Part shown: positions 3,056 to 17,665 of the stretch, piece by piece
How the letters are laid out: each line of letters opens with the position of its first letter
Position numbering within the stretch: the stretch's first letter is position 1
Source of the DNA: a virus
Strand: one strand, 5' to 3'
Virus record (IMG/VR): IMGVR_UViG_3300035701_000361
Coordinates: 1-20,466 of that record
Length of the DNA stretch: 20,466 nt
The notes under the pieces: model-generated
Database searches by the model: none
What the model saw: the letters and a program-made list of their open reading frames with translations, nothing else
What the model was told of the DNA's origin: nothing
Translations under genes and position numbers: made by a program

Positions 3056-4432
3056 TCACTTGAAATGTTCCATGAGACGAACCGAACGAGGACGATCTAG
3101 ATCCAGTCCAGGACGCTCTTCTTTTTTGTTGCCTTTATTCTCATTGAGAGGACGCTTGTAAGTTGAGGAGACTCGGCTTACAGTCTTAGTAGGTGCACCT
3201 TCTTTAAGTCCAGAGAAAAATTCCTTAAGATCTTTGTCAGGCATTTTGCCGTAGACCTTGCGAATCTTTTCTTCAGAAACGCCAAGCTCTTTAGAGAGTG
3301 AAGCGATTTTCTTAAAATTGCTGGACTCCGTAAAGGATTCCATGACTTTCTCCGACCGCTCGCACAATGCAGCGAATTCTGCCGGAGTTCCTGACTTTTT
3401 ATAGGCTTCAACAAGTCCAGTCAGACGATCAATAAGCTTGTTGATTTCGTTCGGCTCTCCAATCCTCTTAAACTCAAGCAGTCGTTTTTTCGCCGAAGCA
3501 AAAGCCTTGACCACTTGGCTTTGAGTCCCATGCTGCTCGAAAAAGCTGGAATATTTCTCCAATCTTTTGACAGAATCAGTGAACTCTTCGTGAGTACCAA
3601 TAGCCTTGTACTTCTCGATGAGACGCACCGACACTTCAGCCTTGCTGAGTTGTGTCTTTAGGTTTTGGCTTTCCGACATAAGAACCGTTTTCTCGGCTCT
3701 AAGATCGTTGACTTCTTTCATCGCCTTCTCTAGGTCATTCTTAATCAAACCGTTCTCTTTAGAAAGGCTCTCCAGTAGCGCTTGCGGCATGCTCTTCTCC
3801 ATTGTATTGTCTAATGAGTTTACCTTACTAAGGCTCTCTACTAATTGTTCAAGAGACTCTACTAACTGTGGATTCGCCTGAGTAAAACCAGGATCAATAA
3901 CAAAATCGAAAGTTTCCAGAACAAACCTAGATGGATCGACTCTTGGTACACCGTTTTGTTCTCCAGCATACCGCCCATCAGCCCTAGAAGAAACAAATAA
4001 TTTAGAACCGGCTCTAAGGAAAGTATTAAGAATGCGACCAGCTGGAGTATCAAGGACCAAAGCTTCCCCGATTCCCTTTTCACCAGCTACGCTAAGATTA
4101 ACAATAACATGACTGATTTTTCCATCACGAATAGCATCATCATCAATCTTTTGATTGTGACCAATGGTGCCATACATGCGGCGATCCATAAATTGCTGCT
4201 TGATTCTTGGATCAGTACAAACTTTTTCCCAGAGTTCTTTTGGATAAAAGCGATTGTTACGGGAAATACCATTAGGGACGAAGAAGTTACCTTTGACTCT
4301 AGCTAAAACATTAGTTCCATCAACTTCACCATTAGCTTCTTCAACGGAAAAGGTAAGCTCTGGGTCCCATAAATCACGCTTGAAGCTTTCTTCTTGCAAT
4401 TGATTTGGCAGATTAGTTATGGCTTCACCCAT
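3056..4432 (-). CDS. Prohead protease fused to scaffold protein
   Basis: The 458-aa product appears to join two head-assembly roles. Residues ~30-180 match the S80 prohead core protease (T4 gp21 type): NNRFYPKELWEK, the likely catalytic histidine in GTIGHN (His92), ISHVIVN, a glycine-rich TPAGRILNTFLRAGSKL and the serine in FVSSRADGR (Ser148/149). Residues ~210-415 are a long, charged, mostly helical and partly coiled-coil segment as in scaffolding proteins, ending in a Lys/Arg-rich tail (QKRP-like, residues ~425-458). In the linker, L-V-E-S, L-V-E-S and L-L-E-S (after Glu192, 199 and 221) are candidate self-cleavage sites. GAGG lies 7 bases before the ATG. An internal ATG at Met215 has its own ribosome site. 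T4 splits protease (21) and core (22) into separate genes; here they are one reading frame. Confidence 0.88.
   Translation of the reverse strand: MGEAITNLPNQLQEESFKRDLWDPELTFSVEEANGEVDGTNVLARVKGNFFVPNGISRNNRFYPKELWEKVCTDPRIKQQFMDRRMYGTIGHNQKIDDDAIRDGKISHVIVNLSVAGEKGIGEALVLDTPAGRILNTFLRAGSKLFVSSRADGRYAGEQNGVPRVDPSRFVLETFDFVIDPGFTQANPQLVESLEQLVESLSKVNSLDNTMEKSMPQALLESLSKENGLIKNDLEKAMKEVNDLRAEKTVLMSESQNLKTQLSKAEVSVRLIEKYKAIGTHEEFTDSVKRLEKYSSFFEQHGTQSQVVKAFASAKKRLLEFKRIGEPNEINKLIDRLTGLVEAYKKSGTPAEFAALCERSEKVMESFTESSNFKKIASLSKELGVSEEKIRKVYGKMPDKDLKEFFSGLKEGAPTKTVSRVSSTYKRPLNENKGNKKEERPGLDLDRPRSVRLMEHFK
3788..3800 (-). promoter_or_regulatory. Internal ribosome site and start for scaffold alone
   Basis: Inside the protease-scaffold gene, GGAG (3797-3800) lies 6 bases before an in-frame ATG (3788-3790, Met215), exactly at the junction between the protease domain and the coiled-coil scaffold. 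Translation from here would make a separate 244-residue scaffold, as with lambda C/Nu3. The next upstream ATG (Met211) has no ribosome site. Seen in sequence; use is inferred. Confidence 0.45.
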
Positions 4433-5632: not shown

Positions 5633-6045
5633 GATTTCGCCCTGCCTAGCTCACGAATTGAATTTTGAATATCCTTAACATCAGCTTGAATATGATTCAT
5701 TGTGGCTTGTGAAGCATGATGTTGTTTCTCAACCCCAAGAAGTCGATCATCAAGATTATCTACTCTGCGGAGTGGAGCAGTAAGGCTTTTTTTAATATCT
5801 TCCAAATCATCACCAATTTGCCGAACCGAAGAATGATAAGCTGCTTCAAAAATGCCAAGTTTTTTATCGACCTCTTGCATCTTGTCTGATGGAGCTACCC
5901 TCTCCATACGGAGTTCGATAATGTTGATCTTAGAATTCAACCCCCGGATCTCCTTATAAAGGAGAATCACTAGGGGTAAAAGAATGAACTGAAAAATTTT
6001 AACAAGGATTTCTGTCCAGTCGTGCATCGTCCCCCCTTGTATCAT
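5629..6045 (-). CDS. Membrane-anchored coiled-coil protein
   Basis: A 138-aa protein with one hydrophobic span at residues ~12-30 (VKIFQFILLPLVILLY) followed by a long charged heptad-like coiled coil to the end (DKMQEVDKKLGIFE, RRVDNLDDRLLGVEKQHH, NHIQADVKDIQNSIREL). The ATG at 6043-6045 shares ATGA with the stop of the AAA+ gene; a second ATG at 6027 gives MHDWTEILVK and has an AAGGGGGG run before it, so the true start may be that one. Topology is probably a short N-terminus outside the coil with the coiled coil on one face of the membrane. It could anchor prohead assembly at the membrane, as T4 proheads start there, or act as a holin or spanin-like protein; neither is proven. Confidence 0.75.
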   Translation of the reverse strand: MIQGGTMHDWTEILVKIFQFILLPLVILLYKEIRGLNSKINIIELRMERVAPSDKMQEVDKKLGIFEAAYHSSVRQIGDDLEDIKKSLTAPLRRVDNLDDRLLGVEKQHHASQATMNHIQADVKDIQNSIRELGRAKS

Positions 6046-7784
6046 TTTTTCTTCTTAAGCACTGCTTTAAGGGAGCGTAGGTGTTTACCTTTAGCTTCTC
6101 TTTGTGGCTTACTTAAAGCCATCCTTTGCTTATAAGACAAACTACTGTAATTCTTTTCTTTCAGAATTGGTAGCTTAGAACGTTTGCTACCACGGATGAC
6201 AGATGACTCTAATAATTTTGATTCAGCCTTTTGGCCGAGCTTGTTACCAAAAGCATCTTGGCTAGTTGACACCGGAGTACCAGCTGCAGTTTGGAAGTCA
6301 CCAGCATTAAGAATCGTTAGAAGAGTAGTTTTGTTGAGCCATTCCAACTCTTGCAAGTTGATGTAGGTCCCATAAGCAGTCTCGGTCCGCGATGCTCCCA
6401 AAGAATCAAGATCAATGACCAGGTTGGTTTCTTGATCTCCATCCATAATCATGGCGGAGCATCCATCATCATCGTCATGAGAGAATGCTACCGACAATAA
6501 ATTTCCTTGGAGATCGACGAAATCAACGTAGATGTTACCATAAAGATCAGTGGAAACATCATCCACAGTAACATCAGCGATACCAAGCCTATCTAGCCGA
6601 AGCGACATAGCCTTATTAATAGCATCAAGAGAATCTTGGCTTAGAACGTCCATATCTTCGATGAGAGCAGCAGCACGAGACTTGGATTCAGCTTCGTTTA
6701 TTTTGATTAAATCTTGACGATTAACAACCTCGAACATTTCGTCAAGCTTCTTTTGAAACTTGGCTTCACCCCAACTACGCATACCTTTGTTGCTACCAGA
6801 TCCCATACCATTGGTGGCTTTAAGCCGCTTAATAGTTTCCGCCATCGAATATTTAAGGCAGTAGACGGAGACTAGAAGTTCACGGAGATCACCAAAAGAT
6901 AAACCATCGGTCTCGTTGGCAATGTCTTTAATCTCAACCTCGGTCAATTTCTTTTTCTTCAGTTTCATCTCAAGATAAGCTTTGCGGCCTTCTAATGGCG
7001 GGAACGGAACCTCAACCTTACGGTCGAAACGACCAGAACGGAGCATACGCTCCGGCAATCGATCGATATGGTTGGTAGTGGCAAGATAAAGAACATTATC
7101 AACTTGAGTTTCGCCGTCAAACAATTCTAGGAGGGAATGCTCGTCGTACTGCACCATTTTATCAATATCTTCCAGGATGACTACACATCTACGATCAGAT
7201 TCGATTTCTCGGAAACTTTTGAGACCTTCAAGCAGGGAACCAACACTCTTAACGAGAAAAACAATATTTCCCTGCTTGACCATCTCTTCCATGACTAACT
7301 TGAGTACACATGTCTTTCCGGAGCCCGGAGGTCCATAGAGCATCATCCCACGCTTGTGCACGAAACCCATATCGTCGAAATCGCCCTTGAGTTCCCAAAA
7401 TTGGCCGATCTCGTTGATTACAGTATCTTGACGCTCATCCTTGAACCGAAGGATTTCGTCGGAGCGGATGTCGGCTTGTTCGAAAAAAGTACCCATCTCA
7501 AATGATGAACGAACATTATAAACACCAGGAGACAATTTGCCTTCAAGCTTGATTTTGCCAACTGGAGAAGAAACGTTGCCATTTTTGGTGTACTGAACCA
7601 CCGACTTGACACGCTTTTGCCCATTAATTGGTGACTCTTGCCCCATCGGGTGTTGCATGTCGAAGTCTTCTGTCAAAGACTCACCAACAAAACCAAGATC
7701 GATCACTGCTTGATTGTCTGGATTAGTAATAGCTTCAACAAGCATTTTATTGAGATTGGCTAGGGCTGCGCTTGCTCTGGACAT
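6042..7784 (-). CDS. AAA+ ATPase in the head operon
   Basis: A 580-aa protein with a classic AAA module at residues ~105-330: Walker A GPPGSGKT (151-158), Walker B VVILEDID (201-208), sensor-1 ATTN (235-238) and the second region of homology LPERMLRSGRFDRKVE with likely arginine fingers at 249 and 252. This resembles FtsH, proteasomal and BCS1-type AAA ATPases, but no peptidase (no HExxH) is attached. Residues ~385-500 form a separate acidic beta-rich domain (NIYVDFVDLQGNLLSVAF, SHDDDDG), and the C-terminus is very basic, ending LKKKK. The N-terminus MSRASAALANLNKMLVE resembles a capsid-targeting leader ending L-V-E. GGAG sits 6 bases before the ATG, immediately after the ATP-grasp stop. Role unknown: a remodelling or packaging chaperone, or a virion protein. 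Confidence 0.9.
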   Translation of the reverse strand: MSRASAALANLNKMLVEAITNPDNQAVIDLGFVGESLTEDFDMQHPMGQESPINGQKRVKSVVQYTKNGNVSSPVGKIKLEGKLSPGVYNVRSSFEMGTFFEQADIRSDEILRFKDERQDTVINEIGQFWELKGDFDDMGFVHKRGMMLYGPPGSGKTCVLKLVMEEMVKQGNIVFLVKSVGSLLEGLKSFREIESDRRCVVILEDIDKMVQYDEHSLLELFDGETQVDNVLYLATTNHIDRLPERMLRSGRFDRKVEVPFPPLEGRKAYLEMKLKKKKLTEVEIKDIANETDGLSFGDLRELLVSVYCLKYSMAETIKRLKATNGMGSGSNKGMRSWGEAKFQKKLDEMFEVVNRQDLIKINEAESKSRAAALIEDMDVLSQDSLDAINKAMSLRLDRLGIADVTVDDVSTDLYGNIYVDFVDLQGNLLSVAFSHDDDDGCSAMIMDGDQETNLVIDLDSLGASRTETAYGTYINLQELEWLNKTTLLTILNAGDFQTAAGTPVSTSQDAFGNKLGQKAESKLLESSVIRGSKRSKLPILKEKNYSSLSYKQRMALSKPQREAKGKHLRSLKAVLKKKK

Positions 7785-9137
7785 TTAATACTCCTTCATT
7801 ACAGAAATCATTTGTTGCAAAATTTGACCAGCCCTACTTTGGGACGGCTTGATTACAATTTTTCTAGCACTTTCTACCATTGCACCATCACCGAAGTTGA
7901 CACCCATCTTTTTGATAGGCTCAACATATTTTTCAATAGTATCATGAATAAAGTTGGTGTTACACATACCGTAGTATACATCCAACTTCTCTTCTTCTTC
8001 AATTATAGCATCATGAAGTTGTTGCAAATTGTCACCAGAAGCACAAACAGCACCAACGAAAGTAGTAACACCTGGAACGGAGTAAGCTGTATCGCCATTC
8101 ATCATGTACCGAATAAACCTTGTATTGTCACCACCATGAAGAGGCAGATACTTCTTAATTGCCTCATCGCTGTAAATCTCAAGACACCCTAGATACTTAT
8201 TATCTGGGAAAGGCGTTTCTTTTGCCTCTCCAGTAGCAACACCATAAATGAATTCTCCGAGTTTTCCATTGGAAAACGAGGAGTAAAGTAGTCCAAGTGG
8301 CATTGGGAACCTGCAGGTCCAGTCGATCCAATAAGAATCTTTCCCATCAAAAATGCATTCGAAACTGAATGCACCACGGTAATTGACCGACTTTAAGTAG
8401 GTAGCTGCTTTGTCGAGATCTTCTTTGAAAATGGTCATGTCGGAAGTCATAAGACCGGTGTAATTACCGCCGTACTCAAACCCCCACATAGCAGGGTAAA
8501 GGAATGTTTCACCATTAAAGAAAAGGTCAGCACCGGTTTCAATTCCTTCGATGGCTTCCTGAATAATAACTGGGATTTGTTCGACGTATGGTCCCATACT
8601 GGAACGGAGCGAGTCAAACATAAAATTGACTTGCTCCATTGATTTAGCAGGGAAAGATTCGAGGGAACCGCGCCAGATGTTGAACTTGATGAAGTAGGAA
8701 CCACCAGACTTTTGGTTAGTCTCCTGCACCCCAAACAACTTCTTCATAGTGTTGAGAGCTTCAGTAAGACCAGTCGCCACTACAGTTTTTGGACACTTGA
8801 TGCCGAGTTTATTCATCACCTCGACCGACTTCATTCGGTCGTTTTCCATCTCTTCGCCAAGACCAGCACCGAAGACGTTGTGACCATTGCCTCTCAACCA
8901 ATGTGCCAATTTTCCCATTCCAATATCTGGGAAAACAATAACATCGGCGTCATCAATATAAGGTCCATAATCGAGCACTTTATTAATCTCTTTAATGCCA
9001 AGACCAGGAGCGAACATCTCGAACTTAGGGTAAGCACTAACCCATGGCATATGGTAGTTGACTTCATGGCCTTCTTTTCCAAGCTGCCTAGCAGTATCAA
9101 CGTGGAGTCCGCCGCAATCTATAAAAAGAAATTTCAT
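7785..9137 (-). CDS. PurD-like ATP-grasp enzyme
   Basis: A 450-aa protein with the layout of phosphoribosylamine-glycine ligase (PurD): an N-terminal Rossmann-like part MKFLFIDCGGLHVDTARQLG, a mid region corresponding to MKSVEVMNKLGIKCPKT, then the ATP-grasp domain with YFIKFNIWRGS (likely ATP-contacting Lys151), IIQEAIEGIETGADLF and the metal-binding strand WIDWTCRFPMP (272-278). In PurD that strand is E-x-N-x-R-x-G-D-P-E; here it is D-x-T-x-R-x-P, so the chemistry may differ. It shares ATGA with the end of the portal gene and has AAGGTG before the start, so it is firmly within the head operon. ATP-grasp enzymes join a carboxylate to an amine or thiol; the substrate here is unknown, and it may modify a protein or small molecule rather than make purines. 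Confidence 0.85.
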   Translation of the reverse strand: MKFLFIDCGGLHVDTARQLGKEGHEVNYHMPWVSAYPKFEMFAPGLGIKEINKVLDYGPYIDDADVIVFPDIGMGKLAHWLRGNGHNVFGAGLGEEMENDRMKSVEVMNKLGIKCPKTVVATGLTEALNTMKKLFGVQETNQKSGGSYFIKFNIWRGSLESFPAKSMEQVNFMFDSLRSSMGPYVEQIPVIIQEAIEGIETGADLFFNGETFLYPAMWGFEYGGNYTGLMTSDMTIFKEDLDKAATYLKSVNYRGAFSFECIFDGKDSYWIDWTCRFPMPLGLLYSSFSNGKLGEFIYGVATGEAKETPFPDNKYLGCLEIYSDEAIKKYLPLHGGDNTRFIRYMMNGDTAYSVPGVTTFVGAVCASGDNLQQLHDAIIEEEEKLDVYYGMCNTNFIHDTIEKYVEPIKKMGVNFGDGAMVESARKIVIKPSQSRAGQILQQMISVMKEY

Positions 9138-10993
9138 GGTGACACCTTATTGCCATTATCAGATACAGTTACATCTGGCTTAGGTGGTGTTAATGTCTTT
9201 CTCCTTACCATTGACGATGGGGTTACAGTTCCACCTCTTTTATCAACCGGAGAATCACTATCTTTGCTGCCAGGAGTACCGCCAATTTTAATTGTTGGAT
9301 CATCCTCCTCTCTACCTTCAGCTTCCCCATCACCATCAACATCAATAATGTTAGGCAAACCAACTGTGTTGAGTTGAGAATTAAGGAATTCCAAGAAGCC
9401 TTCCAAATGGATTCGTTCAGCAAATTTTGGATTGACATTAACATCAGCCATTTCCATGACAAAACGCTTAATATTGTCGAGGAATCCAATAGTGGAGTCC
9501 ATGAACTCCAACCTGTCCAAGTTGTCCACTTCGATCAACTTGTTATAAAACTCAACCTTGATATCATTGGTAGTGTAGTCGATGCCTTTGTTGGAAAGAT
9601 GAATGTAAATAATTTGCCGAACACCCTCTTCGACAGCTTTTTGTACTGCTTTCAGCTTACGAAGATAGCGCGAATATTTACGTAGGACTGTTCCCTTCTT
9701 CTCTTCGTCGGAACCAAAAATAAGCTCGTAAGGGAGACCAACGGAGGAGCAGATGGTTTTGCGAACGTCAACTACTGATTCGAGGAGCTTTTCTGGCTCA
9801 TCAGATTGGTAGTCCATCTTCGACAGTTGACCTTTTTCACCAAAGATCGGAACGGCTTTGATACGACCAGCCGTTGACATAATATTTTCGACGGTGATCT
9901 CACCCATCTTTCCATCAATACCAATCTTCTTGTTAAGAAGCTGTTCCACTTGTTTAGCAGCTTCCATTCCCTTCTGCACATCGTAACCAGGTGGTACCTG
10001 AACACCAACCATGGAACCAGAAGAAAGTTTGGAAATTTTGGTAGCTGGAACGAGAGCTTCAAGAATCTCAAGCTCTTTTAGTTTTGAAATGATCGGGTAA
10101 ATAATAGAGCGACCAACTCGAACGTAACGTGGAATATCTTGACACTTCTTCTCTTTCATCTTGGCTGCCGACAGGTTGAACTCTTTGAAAAGGTCAATTC
10201 GAAGCCTGGACGAAGAAAGTGAAAACTTAATAAACTCGGAAGCGTGACGGCGTTCTACCTGGCCTTTCTCATTTTGAACAAGATAACACTTGATATCTCC
10301 CCATTTCGTGATGGCGACAATTGAAGCTTGATCAACTGAGTCTAGAACATCAACCAACCCAGTCTCATCGTCGTAACAATCATCAACATTGGTTTGGTTC
10401 TTCTGATCTTTTGGGTCTAACTCTTCAATATCTTTTTTTACAAGAGGATCTTTTTCATCATTAACTTTCTTATCTTGCACCACTACTGCTTCGAGAGTGT
10501 ACTCACCATAAGCCAGCATATCTGGAGTAATAGTAAGCGCCAACTGATCAAAGTCAATTTTTTCTTCTAGCAAGTCAATCTGTGTTTGAATATCTTCCCT
10601 AGCAGACGATGCACTAAGAACATTACCAGTACCAATTTCTGGGGCCAATGCATCTTCAGTCATTTGAGTTAGGATAACGTCCACTAAGTAGAATTGGCGC
10701 ATCCTATCGACTTCTCGAATAAGTTTTTTCCGAGAATCAGCGACTTTCATGTAAACGGAAGCTAATGCAGCTAATGTTTTAAAATCTAAACTCTGAACAC
10801 CTTGATTGCGCAGTGCCTCGGTGAGCAGCTGCGCTTGCATTCTAAGAAGTGGATCAACATTATTACTCTCGAACAATTTCTCCAAATCTTCCAACGTTGG
10901 AGCGTTCGGTATCTCCGCATGTTGTGGAGGTGGTGGAATAATTGGAGCGACAATTGTTTCTTGAATTGATGTTAGTGGTGGCTGTGTTTCCAT
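9134..10993 (-). CDS. Portal protein, T4 gp20-like
   Basis: The 619-aa protein likely forms the dodecameric ring through which DNA is packed and released. After a proline-rich start (residues ~15-27) come a helical region and the portal core, with EFIKFSLSSSRLRIDLFKEF, RVGRSIIYPIISKLKELEIL, and the DVRKTICSSVGLPYELIFGS / LRKYSRYLRKLKAVQKAVEE stem-and-wing helices that are typical of T4-like portals. The C-terminal 65 residues are low complexity (acid and Gly/Ser/Pro rich). It follows terminase after 3 bases with AAGGAT before the ATG, and overlaps the ATP-grasp gene by 4 bases. TerL then portal is the usual phage gene order. Length is slightly greater than T4 gp20 because of the extended ends. 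Confidence 0.9.
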   Translation of the reverse strand: METQPPLTSIQETIVAPIIPPPPQHAEIPNAPTLEDLEKLFESNNVDPLLRMQAQLLTEALRNQGVQSLDFKTLAALASVYMKVADSRKKLIREVDRMRQFYLVDVILTQMTEDALAPEIGTGNVLSASSAREDIQTQIDLLEEKIDFDQLALTITPDMLAYGEYTLEAVVVQDKKVNDEKDPLVKKDIEELDPKDQKNQTNVDDCYDDETGLVDVLDSVDQASIVAITKWGDIKCYLVQNEKGQVERRHASEFIKFSLSSSRLRIDLFKEFNLSAAKMKEKKCQDIPRYVRVGRSIIYPIISKLKELEILEALVPATKISKLSSGSMVGVQVPPGYDVQKGMEAAKQVEQLLNKKIGIDGKMGEITVENIMSTAGRIKAVPIFGEKGQLSKMDYQSDEPEKLLESVVDVRKTICSSVGLPYELIFGSDEEKKGTVLRKYSRYLRKLKAVQKAVEEGVRQIIYIHLSNKGIDYTTNDIKVEFYNKLIEVDNLDRLEFMDSTIGFLDNIKRFVMEMADVNVNPKFAERIHLEGFLEFLNSQLNTVGLPNIIDVDGDGEAEGREEDDPTIKIGGTPGSKDSDSPVDKRGGTVTPSSMVRRKTLTPPKPDVTVSDNGNKVSP

Positions 10994-10996
10994 TTA

Positions 10997-13900
10997 TTAT
11001 CCTTCATTCCAGAACATATTTTGCAAATTCTCAGTTCCAACCGATTGCTTCTTTTCAACATAGTGCATAAGTCTAATTTTACTGGCATCAATCATTGCTG
11101 TATAGATTGATCCACATGCGGCATCTGCTAAATCTTTTGAGCCGTCTGGTTGATGGTCTACCTTAGTTCCATCCGGCGTGACTTCAAGGTTCTCTAATTC
11201 TTCTTTTAATAACTTATTTTGAGGCACCATAACGCGGCCTTCGTAAAGAGCGTTTCGAACTTCAGTATAAGGTGTTGAGGTTTTGTCCATAGAAAGCAAT
11301 TCGGCGGTAAATCCCATCTTGGTAAGCAGTTGGATCATTTCGGCAGACTGGAATCCATCAGACGTAATTCTACCAACTGGATATCCGACAGAAGAAAGCC
11401 ACTGGATGAAAGCTCTGATTTTAAAAAGTGGAACCTGCTTGCCGTTTTTCGGCTCGATGCCAATGCACCATTCGCAAACAACCTCAGGCACCGACTCCGA
11501 CACTTCTTGGAAAGTAGAAATGTCGCGATAAATACGATCACGAAACTTGGTGACATAACTACCAGCAATGCCAAGACGGTCACCGGAAAGTCCAATATCT
11601 AAGTGGATGTTACGAGGATAACCTTTGTTGAGCGGATTAAGAAAATAGTTTTTAACTAAGCAGTAATTAGAAATCTGGTCGTTGTCATCATCAAAATCTA
11701 ATTGAAACTTGTCAGGGAAAAGTGGTGATACTGCAATTGCTTTAGTTAATCGATCTTTAAGACGGAACAGCCGATACTTAGAACCGGTAGCAATACCAGC
11801 CAAGTCGCGGAGTGCCTCTACAGTATCGGCTTCGAATGCATCTTTATGCTCTGTTGGAACTTGGATGCAATTTTCTGGCTCACTAATTAAAATTGGGCTG
11901 TCTAATTGAAGGAGTTCTGGTTGTTTAACGTCGGAACCTTTGAATACCCAAAATCTAGCAGTGCCGTAACGGTGAGGCTTTACATCCCAAACTGCTGCCT
12001 GGGATACTTTAACGCCTTGACTTCGGCGATAGCTATCTACAATCTTGTTGACGGCGGAGAACTTGTCGGTTTCAGAGGAATCAATCCAAATCTTACCTGG
12101 GATACCATCTGAACCAATAAATCGTGATTCCATTCGGCGAAGAACCGAGTTAAAAGTCTTATAAGTTTGTCCTTCAATAACCTCGAAGTTAGCCTCGGAA
12201 ATAATGGCTGAATTGTGCAAAAAAACACCCTGTTCAACAGCAAAATTGTGAAACTCGTCTACAGTAATGTCGTAGACAGGAACTTTTTCAGCTAGTTCTA
12301 CCATACGAACTGACACCACTTTATGGTTTAGACAATGGCGTTTATGATTGTTAGCAGAAACTTGTTTTTCAAACAATCGAGAACACTGTGGGCATGTCCA
12401 GTTCACAATTTTATTGGCAGATTTTGCACCGCCAGCTGCAGCACCTTCTTTAATAATCTTCACAGTATTTGGGTTAGACCAAACCACTTTCGCTGCAGCA
12501 CGACCACCAGCCCTAGACATCTCCAGCAAACTTTCACGCTGAGCCGGATCACTCCACCGGCGAGCGTTAACTATTTTGGCGGTCTTAGAGGAAGCTTTAC
12601 TAATTTTTTCTTTGTTGTCTGGGTTAGACCACGTAGCAGCAGCTGCCTTTTTCCCAAATTCTACCTGATGTGGCCTCAAATCGGCTCTGAACTTCGGGTC
12701 TTTCCACTTTTCCGTTAACGTTGCCGAAAACTCCCTACTCTTACGTTCAGCAAATTCTTCCGTCCATACTGATTTACCAGCTTTAGACAATTTAGCTTTC
12801 GTCACGGGGTTAGATCGTAAGATTTCTGCTGCTGCCTTACCACCTTTAGATTGAGACACCTTCATGCGACTTCTGTACTCTGGGTCTTGCCAACGATCAG
12901 AATGCAAATGCTTATGATCAACAGGCGACATCAGCATCAAATTCGACGGATCATTGTTGCGTGAATTATAATCGATATGGTGAGCCACCTGACTACCCTT
13001 GTAACCACCCAAACATTCACGAACCACTAACCGGTGAACAAGTTCAACCTTCCCAGTTGTGTTATCGACAACTGCTGAATACCTATCCCACTGTCCAGAC
13101 TTCTTTCCAAAATATAGCGGCATTAAACTGTTATTAGGCTTCAACTGGTCAGCCGTAACGTAAGACCCGTCCCTCATCATAAATGGGTGATTATTAGTAC
13201 AACGAATCGTCTTACCGTTGTCCAATTCAACTTCATAAAGGCGGTCAACATATCCAGTAATCCGAGCACTGTGACCACGGCCAGGGATGACATGGCCATT
13301 TTTATCTGATGAATACAGCCAAAAATGATCTCTGCCAACTAATTCTTGAATAGGAACCGACTCACCATTTAAAAGTTGAATTTTGGTATCACCGGTTAAA
13401 CAATGAATTGCCTGTCCCAAGGCGTGACCCATCCGAGAGCCCATGATGAAGTCTACGCGATTCGGAAAAAGAGTGTCGTCTGAACCGAAGGATCGTTTCT
13501 TTTTCGAGCCAAAAACACCGACAAATTGGTAGAAAAATGGACTCTGCACAAACATTTGAGAGAGCTTGTCCCAAACAACATCAGTGGTAAGGGAAAGAGT
13601 CCGGTTAAAAATCGCAAAGAGGATTTTTGTAGACCGAACAAGGCCGAATGACTCCTGAGGGGCATTCATTAGAATGAGCTTGTAAATATCGTAGGCGAGA
13701 CCAGCACAAGCAACCGACGTGTTGTGAGAAATAAATCCATCAAACACATAAGACGGATCATCAGCAACAGATAAATCGTAAACTTCACGATTGACTGTTT
13801 CGATAGAGCGGACTTCATCAGTATAACACTGAAAATCGTTCACAAAGTCAAAGTCACGAACCAAACCACCAGTCTTAAAGGTACTGGCAATACGTTGTAC

Positions 13901-15271
13901 ACTATCGAGTGTGGTAGTTTGATTACTAACCATTCCCCACACCGATCTAACATTTCGTGCTTGTGTTTTAACACCAGACTCACGAAGTCTCTGGTCTAGC
14001 TGGCGCAAAATCGGAGAAAATCCAACCAGTGGTAGCCTAACATTGCTCCCACTATCCTTGGAAGCCAAAAGCTCTGCGAAAGCTTGTTGTTTATAAACTA
14101 GGCGAGGACGAAAATTAAGTTCTGCTAAGCGCCGGAATGATCTATAATTGTGAATACTAAGTCGCCAATAGACATGCTCACGATTCACAAAATGCTTAGG
14201 CGTGACACGAACCAAAAGACCTAAAGCACTACAAATTGAAGCCAAACCTCTAATAAAACACTCAGATGAATTTGAAATTTCTATAGCTGCCATGTGTGTA
14301 GAGAGATGGCCGTCAGTATCAACCACACCAGCTATATATTCTACCTGATCTGCTGCTGATGCCTCGAAGATAAATTCCGGTACTAATTTTGGTAGTCTAC
14401 CGCCTTCATTTTGCTCCTTACCCAGAAACCCCTGACTAAGCAAATAACTGGCAAGTGAACGACTAACTTTTCTAGTAGCAAAACAATTTCTACTTAAATA
14501 CCAGTTATTAAAACCACCAGCAAATTCAGAGAAACCTTTCTCTATAGATTCACGATAATTATCATCTTTAATATCAACAGCATTCATAATAAAATGAATT
14601 ACAACTCTATCACCATTTTTAAGGACGGAGATACCACCATCTCCAGAAATAGCACCAACAAACCAAGCAAAATTCGGTAATAGGACTTTGTTGCCAACAG
14701 GTGATGGTCGGAGCGTCCGAAGAATTTTATCTCCTTGGCAAAGATCACTAGCCTTTTTCCACAGGATAGCACCAGTGGTCGGATGTAATACCCGAAAACG
14801 ATGGTTATCACCTACCGTAACTTTCGCACCTTTTATAGTAGAGATTGTGCGACATGGTTTGATCCCGTCACTAACCATAAAAGATACTTCTTTCGGGCCA
14901 CTTTCCGAAAGAACTTGAAATCGTGAACCACTAGACCATAACGCATAAAGATCTTTGATACATTTTATGCCTAAACTTGTAGGTACTCTAGTGTCACTAT
15001 CAAGGCATTTGCCTTGTCCTATAGATCCCCGCAGAGAAATCAACCAATAAGGACTAAAAAATGGCGAAGGATAAACCTCTTTTAAAAAATTTCTCCAATA
15101 ACCATAAAGATCTCCGTTCCAGTAAGCACCTAGGTACTTATCTGAATCCAAAAATTCCTCAATGCAAACTGGTTTCTCTTTGTAATTAGCAATTGATGCA
15201 TAAAGATCTTCCAATTGTCCTAAACTTAATTGGGAGAGATATGGATCAAGTTCTTCAGCTACCTCATGCAT
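10997..15271 (-). CDS. terL: Terminase large subunit precursor with two inteins
   Basis: The 1424-aa precursor contains 598 residues of terminase (88 + 106 + 404) interrupted by inteins of 429 and 397 residues. The packaging ATPase has Walker A G-S-I-G-Q-G-K (82-88), completed by Thr518 after intein 1 is removed, and a Walker B-like SAIISEANF after intein 2, with Glu as the likely catalytic residue and Ser where most families have Asp. The C-terminal RNase H-like nuclease is intact: HLDIGLSGDRLGIAGS, ITSDGFQSAEMIQLL and VDHQPDGSKDLADAACGS carry the three acidic motifs. Terminase pumps DNA into the prohead through the portal and cuts it. The ATG at 15269-15271 has only a weak ribosome site. 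Both insertions are in frame with all splicing residues, so I expect a functional spliced protein. Confidence 0.95.
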   Translation of the reverse strand: MHEVAEELDPYLSQLSLGQLEDLYASIANYKEKPVCIEEFLDSDKYLGAYWNGDLYGYWRNFLKEVYPSPFFSPYWLISLRGSIGQGKCLDSDTRVPTSLGIKCIKDLYALWSSGSRFQVLSESGPKEVSFMVSDGIKPCRTISTIKGAKVTVGDNHRFRVLHPTTGAILWKKASDLCQGDKILRTLRPSPVGNKVLLPNFAWFVGAISGDGGISVLKNGDRVVIHFIMNAVDIKDDNYRESIEKGFSEFAGGFNNWYLSRNCFATRKVSRSLASYLLSQGFLGKEQNEGGRLPKLVPEFIFEASAADQVEYIAGVVDTDGHLSTHMAAIEISNSSECFIRGLASICSALGLLVRVTPKHFVNREHVYWRLSIHNYRSFRRLAELNFRPRLVYKQQAFAELLASKDSGSNVRLPLVGFSPILRQLDQRLRESGVKTQARNVRSVWGMVSNQTTTLDSVQRIASTFKTGGLVRDFDFVNDFQCYTDEVRSIETVNREVYDLSVADDPSYVFDGFISHNTSVACAGLAYDIYKLILMNAPQESFGLVRSTKILFAIFNRTLSLTTDVVWDKLSQMFVQSPFFYQFVGVFGSKKKRSFGSDDTLFPNRVDFIMGSRMGHALGQAIHCLTGDTKIQLLNGESVPIQELVGRDHFWLYSSDKNGHVIPGRGHSARITGYVDRLYEVELDNGKTIRCTNNHPFMMRDGSYVTADQLKPNNSLMPLYFGKKSGQWDRYSAVVDNTTGKVELVHRLVVRECLGGYKGSQVAHHIDYNSRNNDPSNLMLMSPVDHKHLHSDRWQDPEYRSRMKVSQSKGGKAAAEILRSNPVTKAKLSKAGKSVWTEEFAERKSREFSATLTEKWKDPKFRADLRPHQVEFGKKAAAATWSNPDNKEKISKASSKTAKIVNARRWSDPAQRESLLEMSRAGGRAAAKVVWSNPNTVKIIKEGAAAGGAKSANKIVNWTCPQCSRLFEKQVSANNHKRHCLNHKVVSVRMVELAEKVPVYDITVDEFHNFAVEQGVFLHNSAIISEANFEVIEGQTYKTFNSVLRRMESRFIGSDGIPGKIWIDSSETDKFSAVNKIVDSYRRSQGVKVSQAAVWDVKPHRYGTARFWVFKGSDVKQPELLQLDSPILISEPENCIQVPTEHKDAFEADTVEALRDLAGIATGSKYRLFRLKDRLTKAIAVSPLFPDKFQLDFDDDNDQISNYCLVKNYFLNPLNKGYPRNIHLDIGLSGDRLGIAGSYVTKFRDRIYRDISTFQEVSESVPEVVCEWCIGIEPKNGKQVPLFKIRAFIQWLSSVGYPVGRITSDGFQSAEMIQLLTKMGFTAELLSMDKTSTPYTEVRNALYEGRVMVPQNKLLKEELENLEVTPDGTKVDHQPDGSKDLADAACGSIYTAMIDASKIRLMHYVEKKQSVGTENLQNMFWNEG
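12212..13402 (-). mobile_element. Intein 2 with HNH endonuclease, at Walker B
   Basis: A 397-residue intein from Cys1 (CLTGDTKIQLLNGE) to His396-Asn397 (VEQGVFLHN), followed by Ser. The block with CTNNHPF (His72) and VYDITVDEFHNF are the splicing motifs. The endonuclease is HNH: AHHIDYNSRNNDPSNLMLMS (His141/142, Asn154) then DHKHLH. Residues ~168-330 hold about six W-x-D/N-P repeat units (RWQDPEYRSR, KWKDPKFRAD, TWSNPDNKEK, RWSDPAQRES, VWSNPNTVKI) like NUMOD3 DNA-binding repeats, and C-P-Q-C ... H-x-x-H-C (337-357) is a zinc-finger-like site. The splice point is just before SAIISEANF, the Walker B region. DNA borders: TGT at 13400-13402 and AAT at 12212-12214. Confidence 0.94.
13721..15007 (-). 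mobile_element. Intein 1 with LAGLIDADG endonuclease, in Walker A
   Basis: A 429-residue intein from Cys1 (CLDSDTRVPT) to the terminal His428-Asn429 (DGFISHN), followed by Thr. The N-block TVGDNHRF (His69) and the C-terminal VYDLSVADDPSYVFDGF are the usual Hint splicing motifs. Two dodecapeptides, WFVGAISGDGGIS (about 115-127) and YIAGVVDTDGHLS (about 224-236), identify a DOD homing endonuclease with acidic residues in place. It splits the terminase P-loop between Lys88 and Thr518 (G-Q-G-K / T-S), so the host protein is dead until it is spliced. The borders are exact in the DNA: TGC at 15005-15007 and AAC at 13721-13723. Confidence 0.95.
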
Positions 15272-16407: not shown

Positions 16408-16624
16408 CCCTGAAATGTTTAAGACCTTTTTTACCAGCTTCGGCAAACTTATCTGGAACTTGATCTTTTTCGAGTTGTTCCCGAACTTGTTTTGCTGTTA
16501 CCTCTTCAGGAGTCATCTCTGCCATATGAGCATATTGACATTGGTGATGATGCTTCCCTTTCATTTTGCAAAAAGGACAGAGAACATCATGATCTCTTGG
16601 ATTATGTGGGTGAACAATTGTCAT
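16400..16624 (-). CDS. Small zinc-ribbon-like protein
   Basis: A 74-residue protein. ATG at 16622-16624 overlaps the HNH stop by one base, with GAGG 5 bases before. Near the N-terminus VLCPFCKMKGKHHHQC (Cys16, Cys19, a His cluster, Cys29) looks like a one-zinc ribbon or knuckle. The rest is a charged helix (MTPEEVTAKQVREQLEKDQV) and a basic end. Such proteins often bind nucleic acid or a partner protein. There is no close family call, and its pairing with the HNH gene may be only positional. Confidence 0.75.
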   Translation of the reverse strand: MTIVHPHNPRDHDVLCPFCKMKGKHHHQCQYAHMAEMTPEEVTAKQVREQLEKDQVPDKFAEAGKKGLKHFRVG

Positions 16625-16953
16625 TAAGTCCTCTTAATTCTCCAGTGGTCGGCATCTTCTACCACATTTTGATTGCAAAGCCGATAATTACCAAGGTGTC
16701 CAAACCAAAGATGGCAGTTAACCCCACTTTTTTTAGACTCGCAAAGAGTCACTAAATTGGAAGGATCAAGCTCCAAGTCTGGTTTCACATGGAACGGCTG
16801 AATGTGGTGAACTTCAACACTCTTCCAACCAAGACAAACCCGGCAAAAGGGAGACTCAAGCAAATGCGCTCTTCTAATAGATGGCCAGTGTGAAGAACGT
16901 TTTGCCCCATTTGGAGATTTGCCTAGTAACTTGTCTTTGATTGCTCTAAACAA
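16624..16953 (-). CDS. Free-standing HNH endonuclease
   Basis: About 109 residues from TTG 16951-16953, chosen because GGAGGA lies 7 bases before it; an earlier in-frame TTG (16986) has no ribosome site. The HNH motif is FCRVCLGWKSVEVHHIQPFH, then DPSNLVTLC and VNCHLWFGH, giving the Cys-x2-Cys, His-His, Asn and His pattern with paired cysteines for zinc. It nicks or cuts double-stranded DNA. It overlaps the CHAP gene by 8 bases. Short HNH proteins of this kind lie near terminase in many phages and can help packaging; others are homing enzymes. The missing ATG does not suggest decay, as the ribosome site is strong. Confidence 0.85.
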   Translation of the reverse strand: MFRAIKDKLLGKSPNGAKRSSHWPSIRRAHLLESPFCRVCLGWKSVEVHHIQPFHVKPDLELDPSNLVTLCESKKSGVNCHLWFGHLGNYRLCNQNVVEDADHWRIKRT

Positions 16954-17665
16954 GACGACTTCCTCCAAATGGCTTAATAAAACCAAGAATCTTCAGATCT
17001 CCATCTCCATTGAGAGATCTAACTTTCTCGTAATAACCATCACCATTAGTAACAAAACCTGGACCAGCCGAAGTGTTACCCTCTAATGTCACGATTTTGT
17101 TATCAGTAGAAATAGCTTTAACAATACCTGCGTGACCATCAGAAGTGTTACCGTGACGCCAAATAACAACAGAGCCAACAGAAGGAGAATTAAACTTGTA
17201 GATCTCTTTGGTTTGCTGCCACACAGTTAGACAACGCTCGGACGGGTAAAGATTATGAATCAAGTTATAACGACGAGAAACGCGGAGGACAATCCACTGC
17301 ACCGCCGACATACACCAAGGTGCGCCATCTGCAGCGCCGATCACCCGTTGAAACATCTCGACTTCTGGGCCTTTGTTGGAAGGAGTCTCACGGACTCCAA
17401 CGAAGAAATCGGCGAAAAGAACAAGAAGCTGATGTATATCTTGAATTGGATCACGATTTTCAGTAAGTGGACCTTGTGGCTTCTCACCTTTTGCCCACCG
17501 CCTAAGTTCTTCTTTCAACCAATCCTGGTGAGCAAGGTCTCCATGTTTGAGTCTTTGGAAAAGTTCTTCTTCAAGTTCTACCAAAGGTTGAGGTTCGACA
17601 ACCTTTATAATTGGAACAACTGGAGCTAGTTCTTTTTTGTTCAAAAAGTTACTGAACCAAGTCAT
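16946..17665 (-). CDS. CHAP-domain endolysin
   Basis: The 239-aa protein is probably the peptidoglycan-cutting lysin or a virion-associated muralytic enzyme. Residues ~100-235 form a CHAP (NlpC/P60-type) amidohydrolase: APWCMSAVQWI contains the catalytic cysteine, SDGHAGIV the histidine and TLEGNTS the third polar residue. Residues ~1-75 are a charged, helical part (LEEELFQRLKHGDLAHQDWL) without a signal peptide, so release needs a holin or it acts from the virion. ATG at 17663-17665 shares ATGA with the upstream membrane protein, GAGG 7 bases before. No cell-wall binding domain is seen at the C-terminus. Confidence 0.88.
   Translation of the reverse strand: MTWFSNFLNKKELAPVVPIIKVVEPQPLVELEEELFQRLKHGDLAHQDWLKEELRRWAKGEKPQGPLTENRDPIQDIHQLLVLFADFFVGVRETPSNKGPEVEMFQRVIGAADGAPWCMSAVQWIVLRVSRRYNLIHNLYPSERCLTVWQQTKEIYKFNSPSVGSVVIWRHGNTSDGHAGIVKAISTDNKIVTLEGNTSAGPGFVTNGDGYYEKVRSLNGDGDLKILGFIKPFGGSRLV

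Follow-up and report, generated by a model that had tools for sequence, protein, structure and literature searches.

In mycobacteriophages the large terminase (TerL) gene is the commonest intein host, and seven insertion sites, all in the ATPase domain, are listed in the report on these elements (PMC5050341). Splicing was demonstrated there for five TerL inteins and cleavage of intein-free terL for two, and the tested inteins include a Walker A type. The name TerL1-a, introduced there in 2016 (Kelley et al.), denotes an intein that separates the invariant Lys of Walker A from the following Thr; the TerL1-e site is inside the Walker B motif. TerLs interrupted by two inteins were reported from Microcystis phage Mic1, in which the ATPase and nuclease domains hold one intein each and only one of these has an endonuclease (PMC7156551), and from the crAss-like phage OBYQ01000140, in which both inteins are of the Hint-Hop type and TAG is recoded (PMC7886860). 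The TerL of Campylobacter phage IBB_35 contains an intein and an intron (PMC3322345). The TerLs of Bacillus phage SP-15 (KT624200) and Listeria phage LIS04 (OQ999172) are homologous to the protein described here and carry an intein at one of its two insertion sites, just before Walker B. In these phages that intein is split and lacks an endonuclease, and the terL exons are broken by intron-like gaps containing an endonuclease gene. A further intein of SP-15 TerL, of the HNH type and located just before Walker A, is a homologue of intein 2 of this work. The genome papers of SP-15 and LIS04 do not discuss the terL inteins.

The terL gene analysed here has inteins at both ATPase motifs. It belongs to a TerL family different from that of the mycobacteriophages, for which the accessible part of PMC5050341 describes neither a double-intein TerL nor, compared at the level of motifs, a pre-Walker B HNH intein of the present type.

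Two inteins in the terminase gene

The window (the whole stretch of DNA analysed, 20,466 bases) is an entire IMG/VR virus record and probably a genome fragment. It derives from an uncultured, T4-related phage, as indicated by the Gp23 capsid and S77 prohead protease genes. The minus strand encodes the T4-type major capsid protein Gp23 (E 1.6e-17), Peptidase_S77, an AAA+ ATPase, the portal protein, TerL and a CHAP endolysin. The features of the terL region are the following.

10997..15271, minus strand: terL open reading frame, 1,424-aa precursor (160 kDa) with two inteins; predicted spliced product 598 aa (68 kDa)
15008..15271, minus strand: N-extein, aa 1-88, with the Walker A end GSIGQGK
13721..15007, minus strand: intein 1, aa 89-517 (429 aa), from Cys1 to SHN, +1 residue Thr518; Pfam Intein_splicing and LAGLIDADG_3
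14120..14344, minus strand: LAGLIDADG_3 domain, aa 310-384, with the second motif IAGVVDTDG
13403..13720, minus strand: middle extein, aa 518-623, TSVACAG...GHALGQAIH
12212..13402, minus strand: intein 2, aa 624-1020 (397 aa), from Cys1 to LHN, +1 residue Ser1021
12920..13042, minus strand: HNH_3 domain, aa 744-784, VAHHID..N..N..NL....H
12290..12900, minus strand: helical region with repeated RW(S/K/Q)xP-type units and a CPxC...HxxxC finger-like stretch
11000..12211, minus strand: C-extein, aa 1021-1424, with Walker B IISEANF (Glu1026)
9134..10993, minus strand: portal gene, adjoining terL

Two other genes of the window were also noted. A free-standing HNH endonuclease ORF (16624-16986, minus strand; PHROG 144, E 1.5e-11) shares about 40 bases with the terminal part of the CHAP endolysin ORF. 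The AAA+ ATPase gene (6042-7784, minus strand; Pfam AAA, E 2.6e-19) is in an unusual place, between the portal and prohead protease genes; the related phage contig L021 has a partial match downstream of its portal gene.

The TerL family of the window is not recognised by Pfam and PDB sequence profiles: PF03237 matched nowhere in the window record, and hhalign comparison of the family with T4 gp17 was non-significant (the same alignment places the pre-Walker B site in the Walker B region of gp17). Because these comparisons failed, identification was built on relatives, motifs and gene neighbourhood. Annotated TerLs were reached by tblastn with E-values down to 1e-44, and PHROG TerL matches were weak (E 0.002-0.03). 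Residues G85, G87, K88, E200, D399, D405, D479, D546 and D554 are invariant across 12 TerLs, a set that covers Walker A, the catalytic Glu after Walker B and the RNase H-like nuclease acids; the nuclease motifs of the C-extein read HLDIGLSGD, SDGFQSAEM and VDH..GSKDLADA. The portal gene adjoins terL also in RHph and SP-15, and the window portal is 51% identical to its L020 homologue and 32% identical to the annotated RHph portal. On these comparative grounds, assignment of the protein as a phage large terminase appears secure.

The reading frame runs without a stop from 15271 down to 10997. Pfam Intein_splicing matched the whole ORF twice (E 1.6e-27), and the NCBIfam profiles intein_Nterm and intein_Cterm gave two matches each. 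Both inserts have the residues of class 1 inteins: intein 1 has Cys1, the block-B His, a C-terminal His-Asn and Thr518 as the +1 residue, and intein 2 has Cys1, TxxH with the block-B His, a His-Asn end and Ser1021. When the inteins were scanned alone, Intein_splicing scored 38.3 bits for intein 1 and 66.4 bits for intein 2 (cut-off 35.8), LAGLIDADG_3 scored 30.1 for intein 1 (cut-off 22.5) and HNH_3 scored 26.9 for intein 2 (cut-off 24.8). The agreement of residues and profiles is far beyond chance, and the preliminary description was correct in recognizing two complete inteins with endonucleases of different classes.

The joins were examined by aligning the 598-aa extein with 15 family TerLs, 14 of them intein-free and one (L020) with its own intein removed. 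At both joins the flanking residues fell in adjacent columns, in frame and without gaps. In the following, a slash marks the insertion point. Site 1 reads GSIGQGK/TSVACAG in the window and GAIGLGK/TTLACTG in L021; site 2 reads GHALGQAIH/SAIISEANF and GHTLGKDVI/GAIIDEANF, respectively. The previously proposed locations, between the Lys and Thr of Walker A and ahead of Walker B, were thus borne out, and the proposed joins (88/518 and 623/1021) and spliced length were exact to the residue. In the numbering of the spliced protein the joins are K88/T89 and H194/S195. At site 1 every aligned TerL has Thr or Ser as the +1 residue, so the P-loop already offers what splicing requires. At site 2 the window has Ser, as needed for splicing, and Gly is found in most relatives. 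This Ser may have been present by chance in the ancestor or may have been brought by the intein; comparable residue conversion was reported at the haloarchaeal MCM-d site (PMC10643990).

Intein 1 is located at the TerL1-a position. Profile comparison of its family with PDB gave the MchDnaB1 intein (2.8e-20), PI-PfuI (8e-17) and PI-SceI (8e-14). The first LAGLIDADG motif, FVGAISGDG, lies upstream of the LAGLIDADG_3 domain, and the two catalytic acids are both kept. The block-B Thr is replaced by Gly, and the AlphaFold model was poor (pLDDT 50). No relative was recovered when intein 1 was used as a single-sequence query against IMG/VR. The inteins most like it are the P1201 TerL intein and the same-site intein of L072, which shows 61% identity in the last 33 aa. 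In the inteins that L042, L044, L062, L069 and L073 carry between the Lys and Thr of Walker A, Cys1 is replaced by Ala, Ser or Gly, and their splicing may accordingly follow a variant pathway.

For intein 2, the family profile matched the Npu DnaB intein (4.8e-18) and, in the HNH part, the HNH homing endonuclease 1u3e (1e-4). The two splicing halves were for the most part modelled by AlphaFold at pLDDT of about 84-97, the middle poorly; Foldseek matched the model to the Ssp DnaB and Npu DnaB/DnaE inteins (E about 1e-7). The HNH residues are all present, and H141, H142, H163 and H167 are invariant in a 13-member alignment. The helical region is probably the DNA-binding part of the endonuclease. 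Full-length homologues (24-27% identity) are the pre-Walker A HNH inteins of SP-15, L020, L029, L047 and L058. Search of GTDB genomes with the HNH-intein alignment gave one short archaeal match only.

Inteins in related terminase and portal genes

A single-sequence IMG/VR search with the C-extein alone found one relative only; relatives missed by such searches were recovered with alignment queries. Two alignment-based IMG/VR scans, of which the best 80 TerLs each were taken, yielded 110 different TerLs at 95% identity. At least one intein was present in 27 of the 110, in agreement with the earlier suggestion that terL is an intein hot spot. With manual labelling of sites from splice motifs and HMM breaks, eight inteins were before Walker A, eight between the Lys and Thr/Ser of Walker A, 12 before Walker B, two after Walker B and one between the motifs. 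Both window sites therefore recur in the family.

Four of the 110 TerLs have two inteins (SP-15, L067, L073 and L245). L245 (IMG/VR 3300021351_000053) resembles the window gene in having a LAGLIDADG intein at Walker A (K/S) and a second intein at Walker B, but the latter is inserted after the DE of Walker B and no HNH domain was seen in it. L073 combines a LAGLIDADG intein (K/T) with the C-terminal end of an HNH-like intein just before Walker A; the contig ends there, and this intein is presumably of the HNH type.

Further multiple insertions were found in an HNH-intein scan, whose sample is biased towards inteins. The L115 terL combines an HNH intein with the N-half of a pre-Walker B intein and with a group I intron; the intron is at 6589-6929 (plus strand; Rfam RF00028, E 5.7e-13). 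L150 (4611-9584, plus strand, of the 313,762-bp contig IMG/VR 3300013426_000013) encodes a 1,658-aa TerL with four inteins, marked by four Pfam Intein_splicing stretches, and an extein of 662 aa. One of them (HNH) is located before Walker A, one in Walker A (GSIG/SGKS), and two in nuclease motifs I (RF/CHVDL) and III (DMADS/CVGA). The view that double invasion of one ATPase is rare was thus too strong: six relatives are multi-intein, and double-intein TerLs have been published. The window gene clearly belongs to a known type, and the family as a whole offers a useful natural series.

T4-type portal genes with two or three HNH-type inteins each, identified by Pfam Portal_T4 and Intein_splicing, were also observed (L111, 1416-6929; L126, 1198-6738; L102, L112 and L167).

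Forms and origin of the pre-Walker B inteins

The pre-Walker B site is filled in at least 12 relatives, by mini-inteins, by split inteins or by split inteins with a GIY-YIG-like endonuclease. Plain split inteins are present in SP-15, LIS04, L185 and L186. In L225 (4549-6588) and L252 (2119-3789, both plus strand) the N-half ORF continues into a GIY-YIG-like domain, and the C-half has a new Met start ahead of the C-extein; in the L225 N-half, Pfam GIY-YIG was below its cut-off and NUMOD3 was also found. The SP-15 exons are interrupted between ITLD and QSYG, and those of LIS04 before RDIF. The interrupting stretches are intron-like and contain endonuclease genes, Rfam gave no group I intron match in either terL, and the exons are annotated as separate genes. 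Upstream of the L186 terL (3819-4085, plus strand) there is a sub-threshold match to HEARO RNA, the IscB guide RNA family (51 bits, E 1.6e-7).

Relationships were studied by a splicing-domain tree and AU tests based on about 149 columns, with long branches. In the best tree intein 2 stood beside HNH inteins of portal genes and of a TerL nuclease motif (support 87/86, not strong). Identity of insertion position would be explained if intein 2 were the ancestral pre-Walker B intein, sharing descent with the SP-15 group. Its place in the tree speaks against this, and the AU test rejected a single clade of all pre-Walker B inteins, and with it descent of intein 2 from the SP-15 intein (p 0.017); we regard common descent as improbable. 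A pre-Walker B clade excluding the window intein was not rejected (p 0.38). A tree deriving intein 2 from the clade of HNH inteins located ahead of Walker A in this gene was not the best one and was not rejected (p 0.069).

Since the window HNH intein falls outside the other pre-Walker B inteins, this codon position has probably been invaded on at least two occasions, for which the tree comparisons are good but not final evidence. We give even chances to a broader proposal: that at least two intein lineages have converged on the pre-Walker B position of this TerL lineage as a docking site, where most stages of intein life coexist (HNH, mini, split, and split with GIY-YIG-like endonuclease), in packaging genes that are heavily loaded with inteins (up to four in TerL, up to three in portal).

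Predicted splicing, mobility and alternative readings

In all probability the window terL hosts two complete class 1 inteins with predicted homing endonucleases, and splicing is predicted to yield an intact 598-aa motor. The 160-kDa precursor would be unable to form the ATP site: the P-loop residues Lys88 and Thr518 would be held 429 residues apart, and a 397-residue block would precede the Walker B strand with the catalytic Glu1026. Each intein would excise itself by an acyl shift at Cys1, transfer to Thr518 or Ser1021, and Asn cyclisation; proper ATP binding would be possible only after both had left. The LAGLIDADG and HNH domains may cut the intein-free terL of co-infecting phages, whose repair would copy the intein in. 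Imprecise loss of either intein would be lethal, the insertions being in essential motifs.

The terL intein sites turn over, as indicated by two empty-site pairs. The intein before Walker A in L040 (4999-5664) is absent from L043 and leaves a precise empty site, with 96.8% identity downstream; L044 has an intein between Lys and Thr that is missing from L031 at 85% identity. For the window phage, IMG/VR searches found no intein-free close sister. The two inteins were earlier described as independent invasions. That they represent two unrelated endonuclease lineages holds; they may have arrived separately, or one may have hitch-hiked on the conversion tract of the other. Only 318 bases separate the inserts, so one repair tract could carry both. 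Two neighbouring MCM inteins were reported to home poorly together (PMC10643990).

The lack of a close sister showing recent movement would suit inteins that are fixed relics, inherited vertically with dead endonucleases and still spliced because the motor is essential. Such decay happens, as shown by the endonuclease-free mini-inteins among the site 2 relatives. In the window, however, neither LAGLIDADG acid and no HNH residue has been lost, and the nearest TerLs (L020, L021 and L022) have no inteins at the two sites, so neither intein is old in the lineage; the relic explanation is therefore considered rather unlikely. Insertion at both ATPase motifs, which blocks the motor, would also fit a regulatory switch of the kind proposed for Mic1 TerL (PMC7156551), in which packaging would wait for a signal late in infection to set off splicing; other inteins are known to splice conditionally (PMC6195587). 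Against such a function, intein-free sisters are common, so a regulatory need is not evident, and the five mycobacteriophage TerL inteins spliced readily when tested (PMC5050341). A regulatory role seems distinctly improbable. That unrelated intein reads were joined into terL during assembly deserves almost no credence: although the gene is known from one metagenomic record only, its frame is open through all four joins with exact splice residues, G+C is similar throughout (0.36-0.46), and the same sites are filled in independent contigs and isolates. Mobile inteins that splice thus remain the preferred reading.

These results confirm that the status of terL as an intein hot spot extends beyond the actinophages. 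Intein-bearing terL and portal genes are easily overlooked or fragmented in annotation. The empty, HNH, mini, split and GIY-YIG forms at one codon position make up a tractable comparison set, suited to asking why homing elements are drawn to active-site codons, whether adjacent inteins favour or impede one another, and how split inteins originate.
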